DNA of 42,871 bases from Desulfuromonadales bacterium (GTDB lineage: Bacteria > Desulfobacterota > Desulfuromonadia > Desulfuromonadales > Geopsychrobacteraceae): contig JAHYIY010000022.1 of the NCBI GenBank assembly GCA_019429255.1, forward strand, positions 1 through 42,871, written 5' to 3'. The notes below the pieces were generated by a model, which saw only the letters and a list, made by a program, of their open reading frames with translations, had not been told where the DNA came from and did no database searches. The position numbers and the translations under genes are program-made. Positions 26,171-31,127 of this stretch are shown piece after piece (within the stretch, counting starts at the first letter, position 1; the number at the start of each line of letters is the position of its first letter).

Positions 26171-26191
26171 GCACTCTCCATGGAATTAACA

Positions 26192-26491
26192 ATGAAACTG
26201 ACAGGTAAGCAAGCAAGATATTTACGTGGCCTCGGTCACCATCTGCAGGCGATTGTGATGATTGGCAAGGATGAATTGACTGACAGAGTGGTTGCCGCTA
26301 CCGACGAAGCCTTGACCAGCCACGAGTTGATAAAAGTGAAGTTGCAGGATGGTTGCCTCAGCGACCGCCGCGAGATCGCCAGTGAACTGGCCCAGGCAAC
26401 CTCTTCCAACGTCGCCCAGGTTCTCGGCCGTACTTTTCTGCTCTATCGCAGACACCCGGAAAACCCTCAAATTTCCCTACCAAAGCCCTGA
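26192..26491 (+). CDS. yhbY: YhbY/CRM-domain RNA-binding protein
   Basis: This CRM-domain protein associates with pre-50S ribosomes in relatives. The product begins LTGKQARYLRGLGHHLQAIVMIGKDELTD, the hallmark of the family, and keeps HELIKVKL and the end region VLGRTFLLYR. The family normally starts at the M of MKLTGKQ, so ATG 26192 is chosen; ATG 26180, four codons earlier, is also possible and neither has a strong ribosome site. It follows azlD by about 20 bases. The 265-base gap downstream (26492-26756) holds the promoter and leader of the next operon. Confidence 0.9.
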   Translation: MKLTGKQARYLRGLGHHLQAIVMIGKDELTDRVVAATDEALTSHELIKVKLQDGCLSDRREIASELAQATSSNVAQVLGRTFLLYRRHPENPQISLPKP

Positions 26492-26570
26492 GTGCCCTTC
26501 CTCGAATATGTCCCTAAAATGCTAAGATATATAGGCTTTTCTTTTTAATTAAGAGGACATACTTTTTTTA

Positions 26571-26599
26571 TTGACGAAGCCCGATCATGAGCGTATATG
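26571..26599 (+). promoter_or_regulatory. Candidate promoter of the ATP-grasp/KamA operon
   Basis: TTGACG and TATATG are separated by exactly 17 bases. Transcription from here would give a leader of about 150 bases, long enough to include the whole stem structure at 26654-26754. Confidence 0.5.
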
Positions 26600-26653
26600 C
26601 AAAACAAAACAGCATTCATGTTCGGGAATGCGTAACGACCCAAGCTTAAAAAG

Positions 26654-26754
26654 TAACCCCTTTTTATAGCCATTGCCGCCAGGCACCCGAACCTGGAATT
26701 TGCTGTCTTTTGGTCAAGAGTTCCATTTTTTTCAGGCTACGTAAAAAGGGGTTA
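26654..26754 (+). promoter_or_regulatory. Structured 5' leader that sequesters the Shine-Dalgarno
   Basis: TAACCCCTTTTTA followed by TAGCC (26654-26671) pairs with GGCTA, a two-base bulge, and TAAAAAGGGGTTA (26735-26754). This makes an 18-bp stem whose 3' strand contains the AAGGGG ribosome site five bases before ATG 26757. Inside are two smaller possible hairpins: CCAGG/CCTGG (26679-26696) and CTTTT/AAGAG around GGTC. The layout resembles a riboswitch or other translation-controlling RNA. No known riboswitch class was recognised. Confidence 0.6.
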
Positions 26755-26756
26755 TC

Positions 26757-27824
26757 ATGAACGTTGCGCTTGTCTTTAATCTGCGCGAGGAGTCCGTCGA
26801 CGACGACGAACCTCCCTCGCAACCTCCCAGCGAAATGATCAACGACATCTATGCCGAATGGGATGATATCAATACCATTGCGGCGGTCGAAGCCGCTTTG
26901 TCGACACGCCATCAGGTGACCCTGATCAATGCCGGTCTGGATGCTTTCGAAAAACTGCGTAAGCTGAAACCTGACCTGGTTTTTAATATCGCTGAAGGTC
27001 TGCATAGTTCCAGTCGTGAGGCACAGATCCCTGCCCTGCTGGACATGCTGCAGATCCCCTACACCGGCAGCGATCCTGTCACCCTCGGTTTGTGTCTGGA
27101 CAAGCAACGCACTAAAGAAATCTTGAAACAGCATCGGGTTCCGACCCCGCGTTTCTGGATTGTCGCAAATTCTCTCGAAATCCCCCGCAACCTGCGCTAT
27201 CCGCTGATGGTCAAACCTTGTCTGGAAGGCTCCAGCAAGGGGGTTACCAACAATGCTTTGGTTCACAATCGCAAGGAACTTGCCCGGCAGCTTGAATGGA
27301 TCACGGCGACCTATGCACAAAAAGCCATCATCGAGGAATTTCTTCCTGGCCGTGAATTTACCGTCGCACTTCTGGGCAATGGTACTGACATCAGGGTTCT
27401 GCCGATTGTTGAAATCAATTTTGCCACTTTGCCGGCGGGCTGTAACCCGATCTACTCCTATGAGGCCAAGTGGGTATGGGATACGGAGGAGTCCCCACTA
27501 CAGATTTTTGACTGTCCAGCCACGCTTGACCCCTTTCTCCAGCAACAGATTGAACAATTGTGTCGCCAAGCTTTTAATGCTCTTGGCTGTCGCGACTGGT
27601 GCCGCGTCGATGTGCGTCTGGATGCTCTAGGGCGGCCACAGGTGATCGAACTGAACCCGCTGCCGGGAATTCTTCCCCGGCCTGAACAGAACAGCTGTTT
27701 TCCCAAAGCAGCACGAGCGGCAGGATTATCCTATATCGAAATGATTCTGCAGGTGGTTGATTTGGCATCACAACGCTACAATCTTGTTCAGGAGTTCAGA
27801 GATGAAAGTCGCTGTCTGTTATAA
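26757..27824 (+). CDS. D-Ala-D-Ala-ligase-like ATP-grasp enzyme 1
   Basis: This 355-residue protein has the D-alanine-D-alanine ligase fold: an N-terminal domain with LVFNIAEGLHSSSREAQIPALLDMLQIPYTGS, a central ATP-grasp lid with YPLMVKPCLEGSSKG and EEFLPGREFTVALLG, and the metal-binding strand QVIELNPLPGI with Glu298 and Asn300. Such enzymes join an acyl-phosphate-activated carboxylate to an amine. It is the first gene of a four-gene unit with a paralogue, a GNAT and KamA, so a peptide or amide bond to a beta-amino acid is more likely than a cell-wall role. Its end overlaps the next gene by 23 bases. Confidence 0.88.
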   Translation: MNVALVFNLREESVDDDEPPSQPPSEMINDIYAEWDDINTIAAVEAALSTRHQVTLINAGLDAFEKLRKLKPDLVFNIAEGLHSSSREAQIPALLDMLQIPYTGSDPVTLGLCLDKQRTKEILKQHRVPTPRFWIVANSLEIPRNLRYPLMVKPCLEGSSKGVTNNALVHNRKELARQLEWITATYAQKAIIEEFLPGREFTVALLGNGTDIRVLPIVEINFATLPAGCNPIYSYEAKWVWDTEESPLQIFDCPATLDPFLQQQIEQLCRQAFNALGCRDWCRVDVRLDALGRPQVIELNPLPGILPRPEQNSCFPKAARAAGLSYIEMILQVVDLASQRYNLVQEFRDESRCLL

Positions 27825-28809
27825 CCTTGCTGCTACAACTCCCATCCGCGGTGAACGCCTGGATCGCATCTCCGAAGCGGGTGCCGAAACCGAAGCCCAG
27901 GCTGTCGCTGAAGCACTGCGGCGGTTAGGTCATGTGGCTGCATTGATCCCGCTGGGTACCGAAGTGGTTTCCTTTATCGGCAAGTTGCAGCTGCTAAGAC
28001 CCGCGGTCATCTTCAACCTATGTGAAGGCTTTCGCGGTGACAGCGCTAAAGAGATGCACATTGCTGCCCTCTATGAACTGCTTGATATCCCCTATACCGG
28101 ATCTCCATCTCTATGCCTGGCCCTGACCCAGAACAAAGCCCTGACCAAGGATATTCTTGTCCGTCATGGTTTGCCGACCCCCGATTATTTTTGCGTCAAA
28201 CTCAATGAAGCAGCCCCCAAAGTGACCATCGGCTTTCCGTTGATCGTCAAGCCATGCAGTGAAGATGCCTCTTTGAGTATCGGGCCCGATAGTATTGTCC
28301 ACAACGAAGCGGCCTTAAAAAAGCGCATCCGCTACATCCATGACCGCTACAGTCAGGATGCCCTGGTTGAAACCTTTATTTGCGGACGAGAATTTAACGT
28401 TGCCGTCCTGGGCAATCCTCCCACCGGGGCGCTACCCCTTTCCGAGATTGTCTTTGCCAAAAACCTCAAAGCTCCGATTGTCAGCTATGCCGGCAAATGG
28501 GAGACGACATCGGCAGAATACCAGGGGACGACACCACTCTGCCCGGCTTCGGTCGATGAAAAACTCCGTAAAAAAATTGAACACACTGCCATCAAGGCGT
28601 GCCGGTTATTCGGTTGTCGTGATTATGCCCGGGTTGATATACGCATGCAGGGATATGTGCCGCATATCCTGGAAATTAACGCCAATCCGGATATTTGCCC
28701 TGATGCCGGTTTGGCCCGTGCCGCCCACGCTGCAGGTTACGATTACCCGGCGTTGATTCAACGTATCCTCAACATGGCTCTGGCGCGCAAAGGAGCAGCA
28801 CATGCGTGA
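27802..28809 (+). CDS. D-Ala-D-Ala-ligase-like ATP-grasp enzyme 2
   Basis: This second ligase-like protein (335 residues) is paralogous to its neighbour. It shows VIFNLCEGFRGDSAKEMHIAALYELLDIPYTGSP, FPLIVKPCSEDASLSI, ETFICGREFNVAVLG and the metal strand HILEINANPDICPD with Glu291 and Asn293. The start is ATG 27802 with AGGAG eight bases upstream; the frame extends further but only within the previous gene. Two distinct ligases in one unit suggest two successive condensations or a heteromeric enzyme. It overlaps the GNAT gene by eight bases. Confidence 0.88.
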   Translation: MKVAVCYNLAATTPIRGERLDRISEAGAETEAQAVAEALRRLGHVAALIPLGTEVVSFIGKLQLLRPAVIFNLCEGFRGDSAKEMHIAALYELLDIPYTGSPSLCLALTQNKALTKDILVRHGLPTPDYFCVKLNEAAPKVTIGFPLIVKPCSEDASLSIGPDSIVHNEAALKKRIRYIHDRYSQDALVETFICGREFNVAVLGNPPTGALPLSEIVFAKNLKAPIVSYAGKWETTSAEYQGTTPLCPASVDEKLRKKIEHTAIKACRLFGCRDYARVDIRMQGYVPHILEINANPDICPDAGLARAAHAAGYDYPALIQRILNMALARKGAAHA

Positions 28810-29281
28810 TTTACAAAGTAGTGATCGGCCAAAACTGGAACAGATTCTGGTTAGTTGTAATGCCTTTACCAGCGCAGAGGTGGATTGCGCGCTGGAGCTG
28901 CTCGACAGCGTTCTGAATAACCCGGATCAGCAGGATTATGAAGTCATTGTTGCTGAAGTCGCTGGTCAGGTCGCCGGCTACGTGCTGTTCGGAGCGGTAC
29001 CCTTGACCCGGGGCAACTATGATCTCTATTGGATCGCCACCGATCCCGAATTGCACGGGCAAGGTTTTGGTCGCCAACTGATGGCAGAAACTGAAGGCCG
29101 CTTACAGACCCGTGGGGCCCGGATGCTCTGTCTGGAAACCTCATCACAGGAATTTTATCAGCGCACCCGCCGCTTTTACGAGCAGGGTGGGTACCAGGAA
29201 GAAGCGCGGATTCGGGACTTCTACCGTCCTGGCGATGACCGCATTACTTATGTCAAACGTTTTTCTGGTTTGGGGAAATGA
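28802..29281 (+). CDS. GNAT-family N-acetyltransferase
   Basis: The 159-residue protein has the GNAT core: a substrate strand region VIVAEVAGQVAGYVLFGAVPL, motif A DPELHGQGFGRQLM (acetyl-CoA pyrophosphate loop) and motif B FYEQGGYQEEARI. It should transfer an acetyl or similar group to an amine. It is shorter than AblB, the beta-lysine acetyltransferase of methanogens and some bacteria (about 270-plus residues), so it is not simply that enzyme. AAAGGAG precedes the ATG, and it sits between the ligases and kamA, one base from the latter. Confidence 0.88.
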   Translation: MRDLQSSDRPKLEQILVSCNAFTSAEVDCALELLDSVLNNPDQQDYEVIVAEVAGQVAGYVLFGAVPLTRGNYDLYWIATDPELHGQGFGRQLMAETEGRLQTRGARMLCLETSSQEFYQRTRRFYEQGGYQEEARIRDFYRPGDDRITYVKRFSGLGK

Positions 29282-29282
29282 G

Positions 29283-30371
29283 ATGGAAATCTGGCAGAAA
29301 CAGCTGCAAGCAAGCATTACCGATCCGCAAAAACTGACCCGGGCTTACGGCATTGATCCGGCACCGCTTAATGCCGTTGCTGACAAGTATCCGATGCGCG
29401 TAACCCCCTATTACCGCGATCTGATCAAATATGTCGGCGACCCAATCTGGAATCAGGCGGTTCCCGATGAACGCGAATGTCACGACAGTATCTGTGTTGA
29501 TGACCCTCTCGAAGAGGAGAACCAGAGCCCGGTTCCCAACCTGGTACATCGTTACCCCGACCGTGTGCTCTTCCTGGTCTGTTCCGAATGCGCCATGTAC
29601 TGCCGTTTCTGTACCCGCAAGCGCAAAGTCGGTGGTGCTGACATGCAGATTACCAGCAGCACCATCAGTGCTGGTATCGACTATATTGCTGATCATCCTG
29701 AAATTCGCGATGTCATCGTTTCCGGTGGCGATCCCCTGCTGCTCAGCGACGAGAAACTTGATGACATTCTCACGCGCCTGCGCGCCATCCCCCATGTTCA
29801 AATCATTCGTATCGGTACCCGGGTACCGGTGGTACTGCCGATGCGGATTACTTCGGGCCTGATCCGGGTGCTGCGCAAGCACCATCCCCTGTACCTGAAT
29901 ACCCATTTTAACCATCCCGATGAGATCACCAGTCAATCAGCCAAGGCCTGTGAACGCCTGGCCAACATTGGTATTCCTTTGGGCAATCAGTGTGTACTGC
30001 TACGTGGAGTGAATGACGACCCAGTGGTAATGAAACAACTGATGCATAAATTGCTGCAGATCCGCGTGCGTCCCTACTACATTTACCAGGCCGATATGGT
30101 GCAGGGAACCGACCACTTTCGCACCCGGGTGGAAGAAGGGCTGGAGATCATCAGGGCCCTGCGCGGACACACCAGCGGCATGGCGGTACCGGCTTACGTT
30201 ATTGATGCTCCTGGCGGTGGTGGCAAAATTCCGTTGCTCCCAGATTACCTGCAATCCCTTGGTGCCGATGTCGTTTTAAAAAATTACCAGGGCAAAGAAT
30301 TTCACTACGCCAATGCTGCAGAACGCGAATTGGATGAACCCCTTGAAAAAGAGGTTAACCGTAGCTACTGA
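29283..30371 (+). CDS. kamA: KamA-family radical SAM aminomutase, probable lysine 2,3-aminomutase
   Basis: KamA-type enzymes use a [4Fe-4S] cluster, S-adenosylmethionine and PLP to move an amino group from carbon 2 to 3. The cluster motif is CAMYCRFC (Cys103, 107, 110). Residues that bind lysine in Clostridium lysine 2,3-aminomutase are present: Arg in CTRKR (Arg112), Asp271 in YIYQAD and Asp308 in DAPGGGGK, whose Lys315 should hold PLP. At 362 residues it lacks the C-terminal cysteine-rich zinc tail of the clostridial enzyme. The start is ATG 29283, one base after the GNAT stop; the frame extends upstream but inside that gene. A hairpin terminator follows. Confidence 0.92.
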   Translation: MEIWQKQLQASITDPQKLTRAYGIDPAPLNAVADKYPMRVTPYYRDLIKYVGDPIWNQAVPDERECHDSICVDDPLEEENQSPVPNLVHRYPDRVLFLVCSECAMYCRFCTRKRKVGGADMQITSSTISAGIDYIADHPEIRDVIVSGGDPLLLSDEKLDDILTRLRAIPHVQIIRIGTRVPVVLPMRITSGLIRVLRKHHPLYLNTHFNHPDEITSQSAKACERLANIGIPLGNQCVLLRGVNDDPVVMKQLMHKLLQIRVRPYYIYQADMVQGTDHFRTRVEEGLEIIRALRGHTSGMAVPAYVIDAPGGGGKIPLLPDYLQSLGADVVLKNYQGKEFHYANAAERELDEPLEKEVNRSY

Positions 30372-30382
30372 CAAACGCGAAA

Positions 30383-30426
30383 AAAGCAACCCCTCGGCGC
30401 CTTTAGCCGACCGGAGGGGTTGCTTT
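30383..30426 (+). terminator. Hairpin terminator of the kamA operon
   Basis: AAAGCAACCCCTC and GAGGGGTTGCTTT form a 13-bp stem around an 18-base middle. The T run is short (TTT), so termination may be only moderately efficient. It closes the four-gene unit twelve bases after the kamA stop. Confidence 0.78.
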
Positions 30427-30497
30427 CCCGCCGCAAAACAGGAATGATGGATGCAAGTTGAACGACGTGGCCATCAACCCATAACTGGTTTTATCCT

Positions 30498-31127
30498 ATG
30501 TATTCCTTTGATTTGACCCTGGATCCACCAACCAGCCGGGAGCTTGACAGCGCCCTGACTGAGCTGAAAAAACAGCGCCGTAAACTGATGATCCGTTCCT
30601 GCATTTCCGACGGAATCCATATCGTGCTGCTGTTGCTGCTTTATTTTGGTAATTTTCTCAGCGGTCGTTCCATTATGGTGTTGATTGCCTTAAGCCTGGT
30701 CATTGCCATCATTCTTGCGACCGCGACCCGGGAATCATTGTTTTTTTCCGATCTGATTGCTATTGCTGTCACCATCATCACCACGGCAGCGGCCGCAACG
30801 CTGCTGCTTGCCATCGCCATGCATCAGCCCTGGGGGGGCAGTATTGTTGCCGGTCTGCTTGCCGGCACCATCGTCAGCTCCGGCACCATTTTAGGGCGTA
30901 GATTGAAAAAAATCATGTTTGCCATTGAGCAGTTAACACTGATTCCGGCTGATGATCCGGTCCTTGAGGAGTTGGGCGTTTTCTGTCAACGCTACCCGGA
31001 CTTGCGTCATTACCGTGAGCAGGCGTCACGCAATTTGCGTCCGCATCTGACCTATGGTGAGCTCTTTGCCATGCGCGACTGGCATCAACAGCGGGGTGAA
31101 CAGAGACCGGTGAACGGTGAGCGGTGA
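30498..31127 (+). CDS. Hypothetical membrane protein (209 aa)
   Basis: This protein has a charged N-terminus (LDSALTELKKQRRKLMIR), about four hydrophobic segments between residues 35 and 130 (IHIVLLLLLYFGNFL, IMVLIALSLVIAIILA, LIAIAVTIITTAAAATLLLAIA, IVAGLLAGTIVSSGTIL) and a soluble C-terminal helix region. No family is recognised. It follows the kamA terminator and has no strong ribosome site. Its last codons and stop lie in a 14-bp tandem repeat (31109-31150), so the original C-terminus may have been altered by repeat expansion. Confidence 0.75.
   Translation: MYSFDLTLDPPTSRELDSALTELKKQRRKLMIRSCISDGIHIVLLLLLYFGNFLSGRSIMVLIALSLVIAIILATATRESLFFSDLIAIAVTIITTAAAATLLLAIAMHQPWGGSIVAGLLAGTIVSSGTILGRRLKKIMFAIEQLTLIPADDPVLEELGVFCQRYPDLRHYREQASRNLRPHLTYGELFAMRDWHQQRGEQRPVNGER

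Follow-up and report, generated by a model that had tools for sequence, protein, structure and literature searches.

What might be made by an operon that joins a lysine 2,3-aminomutase-type enzyme to two amide ligases and an acetyltransferase is the question raised by a locus of a Desulfuromonadales bacterium (assembly GCA_019429255.1, contig JAHYIY010000022.1), of which the whole stretch of 42,871 nucleotides analysed is called here the window. On its forward strand, positions 26571-30426 form a single unit composed of a promoter, a 156-nt leader, four genes and a terminator-like stem-loop. The genes encode two Ddl-like amide ligases of the ATP-grasp type, A1 (26757-27824, 355 aa) and A2 (27802-28809, 335 aa), a GNAT acetyltransferase (28802-29281, 159 aa) and KamA (29283-30371, 362 aa), which profiles and residues place among the lysine 2,3-aminomutase-type radical SAM enzymes. 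We lean, though not by much, towards the view that the operon is a pathway independent of non-ribosomal peptide synthetases that leads from lysine to a short, acetylatable beta-lysine amide, perhaps polyamine-like, and that the leader probably gates the first gene. This view builds on the gene set, its recurrence, the conservation of residues, the predicted fold of the ligases and the covariation of one leader helix (P1), from which we infer every reaction, the order of the steps, the product, the ligand and the switching between two RNA folds.

The gene set recurs in other genomes. A KamA scan of genome contigs gave 365 confirmed candidates and, because only the best 80 loci were kept, this set is biased towards close KamA relatives. 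The order A1-A2-GNAT-KamA was found in 50 of these 80 loci (loci are given below by their L numbers), so the possibility raised in an earlier, sequence-only reading of the window, that the four genes never recur together, clearly failed. On the strand concerned, 39 of the 50 were bare, five had a third ATP-grasp gene after KamA and six a deacetylase gene at one end; a deacetylase was nearby in nine of the 80 (on the opposite strand in L008 and L009), and four others of the 80 were cut by a contig end (L012, L047, L056 and L083). Record titles of the four-gene loci include Desulfuromonadales, KSB1, Verrucomicrobia, Kiritimatiellae and Aminicenantes. The order A1-A2-KamA without GNAT occurred in four of the 80 loci, among them three from archaea-titled metagenome-assembled genomes (MAGs; L059, L072 and L084, titled Altiarchaeales, Pacearchaeota and Woesearchaeota), the Woesearchaeota-titled one in an assembly of about 0.9 Mb. 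As the records are mostly MAGs, the taxonomy of a locus is only as reliable as the binning.

Within the phylum of the bacterium itself, Desulfobacterota, an A1 profile matched 170 of 297 genomes at E<=1e-40, distant relatives included, and 60 loci, one per genome, were chosen by eye for their A1/A2 match and family spread, so that the sample is non-random. By marker profiles, 36 of the 60 loci had KamA clustered with the ligase match (eight of these 36 also had a deacetylase), and 29 of the 60 were KamA-first with both ligases. Polyamine-type genes lay upstream of A1-A2 in nine loci, and 15 fitted neither arrangement, several of them being cut contigs or A2-like matches without A1. Because the usual order in Desulfobacterota differs from that of the window, the association must have been rebuilt or reshuffled, yet it was kept. 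Of the 110 genomes with A1 at E<=1e-60, 102 had a KamA-family match at E<=1e-90, versus 69 of 187 others (Fisher p 2.1e-23, uncorrected for phylogeny and with other KamA clades included in the KamA tally). A gene set that is kept in distantly related bacterial phyla and partly also in archaea, down to an assembly of 0.9 Mb, probably makes something basic. A viral origin was also considered and set aside, a single scan of viral contigs with KamA having given no relative. The pathway is real, widely conserved and apparently uncharacterised; in the open-licence PMC literature we found no paper tying a lysine aminomutase to such an ATP-grasp ligase pair. Iyer et al. (2009, Mol Biosyst) reportedly surveyed ATP-grasp neighbourhoods and predicted ATP-grasp/GNAT peptide pathways which likewise have ATP-grasp ligases encoded beside modified-amino-acid enzymes, so that this set of genes may have been recorded in that survey already.

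The sequence-only reading had taken KamA for a lysine-type enzyme on account of Arg112, Asp271, Asp308 and Lys315, and this was borne out: the four residues are invariant in 34 sequences (alignment A3), and the equivalents of R134, D293, D330 and K337 of lysine 2,3-aminomutase (LAM) are kept in 85 of 85 cassette KamAs in a wider tree set. We take these four to be lysine-binding and pyridoxal phosphate (PLP) residues of LAM, with K337 as the PLP lysine. With the CxxxCxxC cluster also in place, KamA carries the residues expected for lysine 2,3-aminomutase chemistry. The only PDB match of the KamA profile at E<=0.001 was LAM (2a5h, 502 bits), and the score against the AblA equivalog TIGR03820 (476.9 bits) was below the cut-off of 525.4. 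The genome has four KamA genes, namely that of the cassette, AblA, a 346-aa paralogue and a further one termed C20; AblA (767 bits) adjoins AblB (324 bits, 282 aa) at another locus. The C20 paralogue (L143, G000:C20) is the sole exception in the KamA tree to the conservation of R134, D293, D330 and K337 (it reads REAK, E replacing D293 and A replacing D330), and its best NCBIfam score was for arginine 2,3-aminomutase (373 bits, below the cut-off of 600).

The structure models of A1 and A2 were confident (pLDDT 88 and 91), and among the chains compared their best structural matches were Ddl, with Z of 32.4 and 34.7. Residues were mapped on DdlB, whose reference stretch begins at residue 70. As in Ddl, the ATP/Mg residues are present, the equivalents of K97, K144, E180, E187, K215, D257, E270 and N272 being invariant or nearly so in all six ligase groups. 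The acceptor side is where both depart from Ddl. Window-type A1 retains its carboxylate-acceptor site, with S150, R255, G276 and S281 kept in 55 of 55 sequences, whereas that of window-type A2 is changed: R255 is kept in 56 of 56, and S150, G276 and S281 are replaced by A, D and A in 54 of 56. In both type I ligases Tyr216 gives way to Trp (53/55 A1 and 56/56 A2). Over all groups, every A1 counted has the equivalents of R255 and G276 and the majority have S281, whereas S150, G276 and S281 are absent from most A2. In the KamA-first loci, 27 of 37 A1 sequences carry T at position 150, and E is the usual residue at 216; of the A2 sequences, 27 of 35 carry C at position 276 and seven keep S281. 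Presumably S150, Y216 and S281 are substrate residues of Ddl; as a set, they are not retained by the A1/A2 pair. Against the Ddl model NF002378 (cut-off 243 bits) A1 and A2 scored 188.2 and 150.6, versus 375.7 for a canonical Ddl encoded at another locus of the same genome, and neither ligase reached any NCBIfam cut-off among the matches listed (the best 25 of 41 and of 37). These alignments suggest that A1 may have a dipeptide-like acceptor site for a molecule with a free carboxylate, and that A2 may accept something else, perhaps an amine. The residue counts exclude six A2-only matches with no A1 nearby (L168, L176 and L181-L184) and loci L085-L114, which have short flanks; the ligase tree, rooted on the DdlB fragment with a support of 0.29, was used for grouping only. 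Three of the excluded matches (L168, L183 and L184) are long reading frames, those of L168 and L184 having the A2-like ATP-grasp behind an N-terminal part that in L184 is methyltransferase-like by eye. A third, weakly RimK-like ATP-grasp was seen in loci of both the KamA and the polyamine type (L052:9134-10075, L116:6634-7560 and L148).

The GNAT profile matched PDB 2r7h, named as a putative D-alanine N-acetyltransferase, with 164 bits (the next chain had 33 bits), which places the enzyme in that family. It had no match to the AblB model TIGR03827 at E<=0.001 and, with 159 aa against the 282 aa of the AblB encoded elsewhere in the genome, it is not AblB, as the sequence-only reading had already proposed. 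In the deacetylase that recurs beside cassettes, Pfam recognised a histone-deacetylase domain, and the four PDB entries that match it best are acetylpolyamine amidohydrolases (top 9gkz, E 4.8e-66); unlike these, the deacetylase carries an extra N-terminal part, GNAT-like by eye.

A second connection with polyamines comes from five families in which nine loci (L116-L123 and L126) have an ArgDC-family gene directly upstream of the ligases. Six of them also have a DHS-family gene and seven an arginase-family gene, and Pfam confirmed the ArgDC, DHS and arginase families in L116 and DHS in L117. The window-type ligase signature is present in all nine (9/9). In each of these genomes KamA sits elsewhere, and the same holds for L125, a truncated contig whose two ligases belong to that group. 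The seven KamAs fetched from polyamine-type genomes group with 27 cassette KamAs with a support of 1.0, and a small MerR-like gene precedes KamA in 7/7 of the fetched loci, three of which had served to build the marker. In these loci (L135-L141), pyrE/pyrF-like genes adjoined the MerR-KamA pair in several genomes, as judged by eye. The 73 genomes over the nspC cut-off include none of the nine ArgDC-locus genomes, nor that of L125. We regard the polyamine link as moderate. That the cassette replaces spermidine synthesis was considered and found unsupported, its own genome having nspC over the cut-off.

The leader (26601-26756) is a structured RNA, with covariation above that of shuffled alignments, and a candidate riboswitch or other cis-regulatory RNA. 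Two folds are predicted. In one, the 5' strand of helix P1 (26612-26626, core 26615-26626) pairs with the 3' strand at about 26686-26703 (core 26686-26697), enclosing a small hairpin, P3 (GCCGCCAGGC, 26675-26684). In the other, an anti-RBS strand (UAACCCCUUUUUAUAGCC, 26654-26671) pairs with the strand that contains the ribosome-binding site (RBS) and adjoins the start codon (GGCUA.GUAAAAAGGGGUUA, 26735-26754). Since P1 (columns 20-31/100-111 of alignment A6) and the RBS helix (columns 63-70/182-189) cross, they are mutually exclusive as plain helices. The leader is like translational riboswitches in having predicted mutually exclusive helices, one of them over the RBS, and unlike known ones in that Rfam at E<=1 gave no match in 26171-30600 of the window; four relatives gave one weak Caenorhabditis snoRNA match, below the gathering score and away from the leader. 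The sequence-only reading had rightly included a leader in the unit, and had overlooked its conservation as an RNA for which two folds are predicted.

Leader identity to L005 and L007 (96.8 and 93.0%) exceeds that of the A1 coding DNA (86.7 and 85.5%), while it is below it for L006 (76.9 vs 85.7) and L008 (63.2 vs 69.8). In an alignment of 23 leaders, 84.9% of the cells were paired versus 79.7 in shuffles, 43 cells had double-sided changes versus 23.5, and the covariation score was 0.214 versus 0.149, values that 0 of 500 shuffles reached. When the partner strand was slid by 1-3 columns, pairing and score dropped, the count of double-sided pairs not always. Alignments fitted to the model (24 and 39 distinct sequences) gave scores of 0.306 versus 0.180 and 0.313 versus 0.165, with all five measures high and at most 8 of 500 shuffles reaching them, although alignments of this kind are biased in favour of the model, and sequences that are related may exceed shuffles without structure. 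Sequence by sequence, 19 of 24 leaders had a P1 duplex, and 23 of 24 an RBS helix, that no more than 5 of 100 shuffles matched. Folding z-scores of single leaders were mixed (window -3.1, L017 -3.2, L010 -1.4 and L025 -0.8), and for this reason the case for the leader rests on covariation.

A covariance model of the leader found a single site in the genome, that of the window, and matched 24 of 25 tested cassettes of window order; the one missed, L016, has a leader of just 61 nt from which the element is absent. L115, which was outside the training set, scored 85 bits directly upstream of A1. At E<=0.5 the model had no match in the tested loci of other phyla or of the KamA-first type. Among 194 genomes of the class 38 matched, with 39 leader sites, of which 37 are followed by A1 (including L224, where the match is partial and A1 lies about 730 nt downstream); the exceptions are L223 and L229. 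The L229 match (25.6 bits) was taken as spurious because it lies antisense inside a gene, and so were two antisense matches (E 0.04 and 0.09). We regard the leader as a candidate new regulatory RNA of one bacterial group, whose predicted folds would free or bury the RBS. It offers a direct handle, as its ligand would indicate the product or the condition that requires the product.

In the pathway that we favour, KamA would convert L-lysine to beta-lysine, as its conserved residues suggest. A1 would turn an amino acid into an acyl-phosphate and join it to the amine of a second molecule that keeps its free carboxylate, A2 would form a second amide bond, onto a different and perhaps cationic acceptor, and the GNAT would acetylate an amine on an intermediate or on the product. 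In relatives, the deacetylase of acetylpolyamine-amidohydrolase type could undo the acetylation. In operons of window order, the leader would gate translation of the first gene, with the RBS free when P1 forms and buried in the alternative helix. Put together, the proposed KamA, ligase, GNAT and deacetylase steps would make a short, acetylatable beta-lysine amide the probable product. If this were a polyamine-like compound, it would represent a new branch of polyamine biology and would account for the probably misleading KamA and Ddl annotations.

Several observations weigh against this proposal. KamA stood alone within the sampled flank in 22 of the 80 KamA-selected loci, the GNAT is missing from the three archaeal loci and from L051, and 8 of the 110 A1-type genomes lack a strong KamA match. 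The substrate residues of KamA are common to other KamA clades, so that they cannot prove that beta-lysine enters the pathway, and the cassette KamAs are not one clade, being spread over more than one in a tree of moderate backbone support. At A1 position 216 and A2 position 276 the rearranged loci differ again, and what we propose for the A2 acceptor comes from an alignment, not from a complex. In the 23 leaders, the number of pairs with double-sided change (8 vs 8.7 in shuffles, reached by 446/500) and that of further pair types (30 vs 28.1, reached by 104/500) were at chance level. The RBS helix barely varies and shows no covariation, so that covariation supports P1 and not that helix. The ArgDC, DHS and arginase markers were partly built from the same loci, Pfam having covered L116 and one L117 protein. 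Finally, the search for the deacetylase in the genome itself gave one match, of 68 residues, and no good copy, and nspC is there over the cut-off; the polyamine link consequently rests on relatives.

A bolder extension of our proposal would make the leader a new class of regulatory RNA that senses Mg2+ or the polycation itself and controls a hitherto undescribed pathway to a beta-lysine-based stand-in for polyamines, by which cells would trade inorganic for organic cations. It is suggested by the leader of an MgtC operon (L223), by MgtC or MgtE neighbours (L018, L022 and L221) and by the polyamine-type genes and deacetylase of relatives, and we consider it quite unlikely as a whole. In L223 a leader copy of 52 bits (L223:2164-2316, G469:C24) precedes genes for MgtC, a C39-like peptidase, an RLAN/RimK ATP-grasp and a GCS2-family protein, with MgtE just upstream; as the listed MgtC start is some 80 nt past the leader, their coupling is uncertain. 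An MgtC relative follows KamA by 13 nt in L018, MgtE lies upstream of the leader in L221 and in two loci that may come from a single species (L022 and L219), and L115 has MgtC on the opposite strand. A search with the L223 proteins across all loci collected revealed none of the MgtC/MgtE type in the window. With few cases among many loci, the Mg2+ link is weak and only a lead. Apart from these, in a cassette titled Aminicenantes (L068) KamA is followed, after about 340 nt, by a distant relative of MgtE (28% identity).

An alternative that we hold to be unlikely, though possible, is that the operon makes a compatible solute, a neutral or zwitterionic N-acetyl-beta-lysine peptide accumulating at high salt, an osmolyte role having been suggested in the sequence-only reading. 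Beta-lysine plus an acetyltransferase resembles the salt-dependent N-acetyl-beta-lysine (AblA/AblB) osmolyte pathway (PMC1224877), and the same route was proposed for the salt tolerance of Pelobacter carbinolicus (PMC3543383). The operon shares with the AblA/AblB pathway for N-epsilon-acetyl-beta-lysine a lysine 2,3-aminomutase and an acetyltransferase, but it adds two ATP-grasp ligases, its GNAT is short and without AblB match, and its KamA is under the AblA cut-off. Since the genome encodes AblA/AblB and a canonical Ddl at other loci, the operon represents neither the N-acetyl-beta-lysine route, which we rejected as its main function, nor ordinary cell-wall synthesis; the earlier view that the ligases stand outside that route was supported. 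An osmolyte role is also less favoured because the neighbours in relatives are of polyamine type and, in a few, of Mg2+ type, and polyamine-type neighbours and a polyamine-type deacetylase would be unexpected for an osmolyte. Inspection by eye recognised no osmolyte transporter in the open reading frame (ORF) clusters common to at least three loci. The analogy with N-acetylglutaminylglutamine amide drawn in the sequence-only reading found no support either, none of the genes for that compound being recognised by eye in the flanking ORF clusters, where no search was aimed at them.

Antibiotic pathways are among those that use ATP-grasp dipeptide ligases, and beta-lysine is found in antibiotics, so that the product might be a diffusible beta-lysine peptide for competition or signalling. 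We find this improbable: by eye, the clusters of 680 flanking ORFs contained no common exporter or resistance gene, although no family search was made, and finding the set in an archaeal assembly of 0.9 Mb speaks for a basic role.

It seems just as doubtful that a beta-lysine-containing group is placed on a protein, in the manner of EF-P. The KamA family includes EpmB, and a KamA-family enzyme makes the beta-lysine for the EpmB/EpmA/EF-P system, DHS-family genes adjoin the ligases in some genomes and, in L144, a KamA lies beside genes that are EF-P/EpmA-like by eye. The 346-aa paralogue of the genome groups with this L144 KamA (0.999). In the four-gene unit, however, no EF-P gene was seen, and the cassette KamA scores 258.9 bits against EpmB (TIGR03821, cut-off 369.3), for which its identification as EpmB was discarded; the L144 KamA is also below (255 bits). 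No recurring target gene was recognised by eye in the sampled flanks, and the DHS, arginase and ArgDC families are jointly a better fit to free polyamine synthesis.

That the ligases make an unusual dipeptide precursor of peptidoglycan is hardly credible, and a cell-wall Ddl role was discarded, since A1 and A2, although nearest to Ddl in fold and sequence, score under the cut-offs, the canonical Ddl is encoded elsewhere in the genome with a score over its own cut-off, and the ligase pair is also found in archaea-labelled MAGs.

As to the layout of the operon, YhbY lies upstream and an ORF without family match downstream. Within it, A1 and A2 overlap by 23 nt and A2 and GNAT by 8 nt, and 1 nt separates GNAT from KamA, whose start is at 29283 (a program-made ORF from 29112 is overlong). 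Pfam recognised the Ddl C-terminal domain in A1 and A2, GNAT, and radical SAM plus LAM_C in KamA. The terminator-like stem-loop (30383-30426), which is followed by a short run of only three T, is proposed on folding energy (-29.6 kcal/mol for 61 nt, z -3.9) and was not reported as a terminator by the scanner. The promoter (26571-26599; -35 TTGACG at 26571-26576, a 17-nt spacer and -10 TATATG at 26594-26599) has a comparative basis; a generic consensus scanner did not report it, and the two promoter-like matches that it gave were fewer than in shuffles (mean 3.4). With these signals and its tightly packed genes, the locus is one transcription unit with the limits given for it in the sequence-only reading. 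In all 24 loci examined, TTGAC[AG] stands at a constant spacing from a -10-like hexamer, which is poor in L019.

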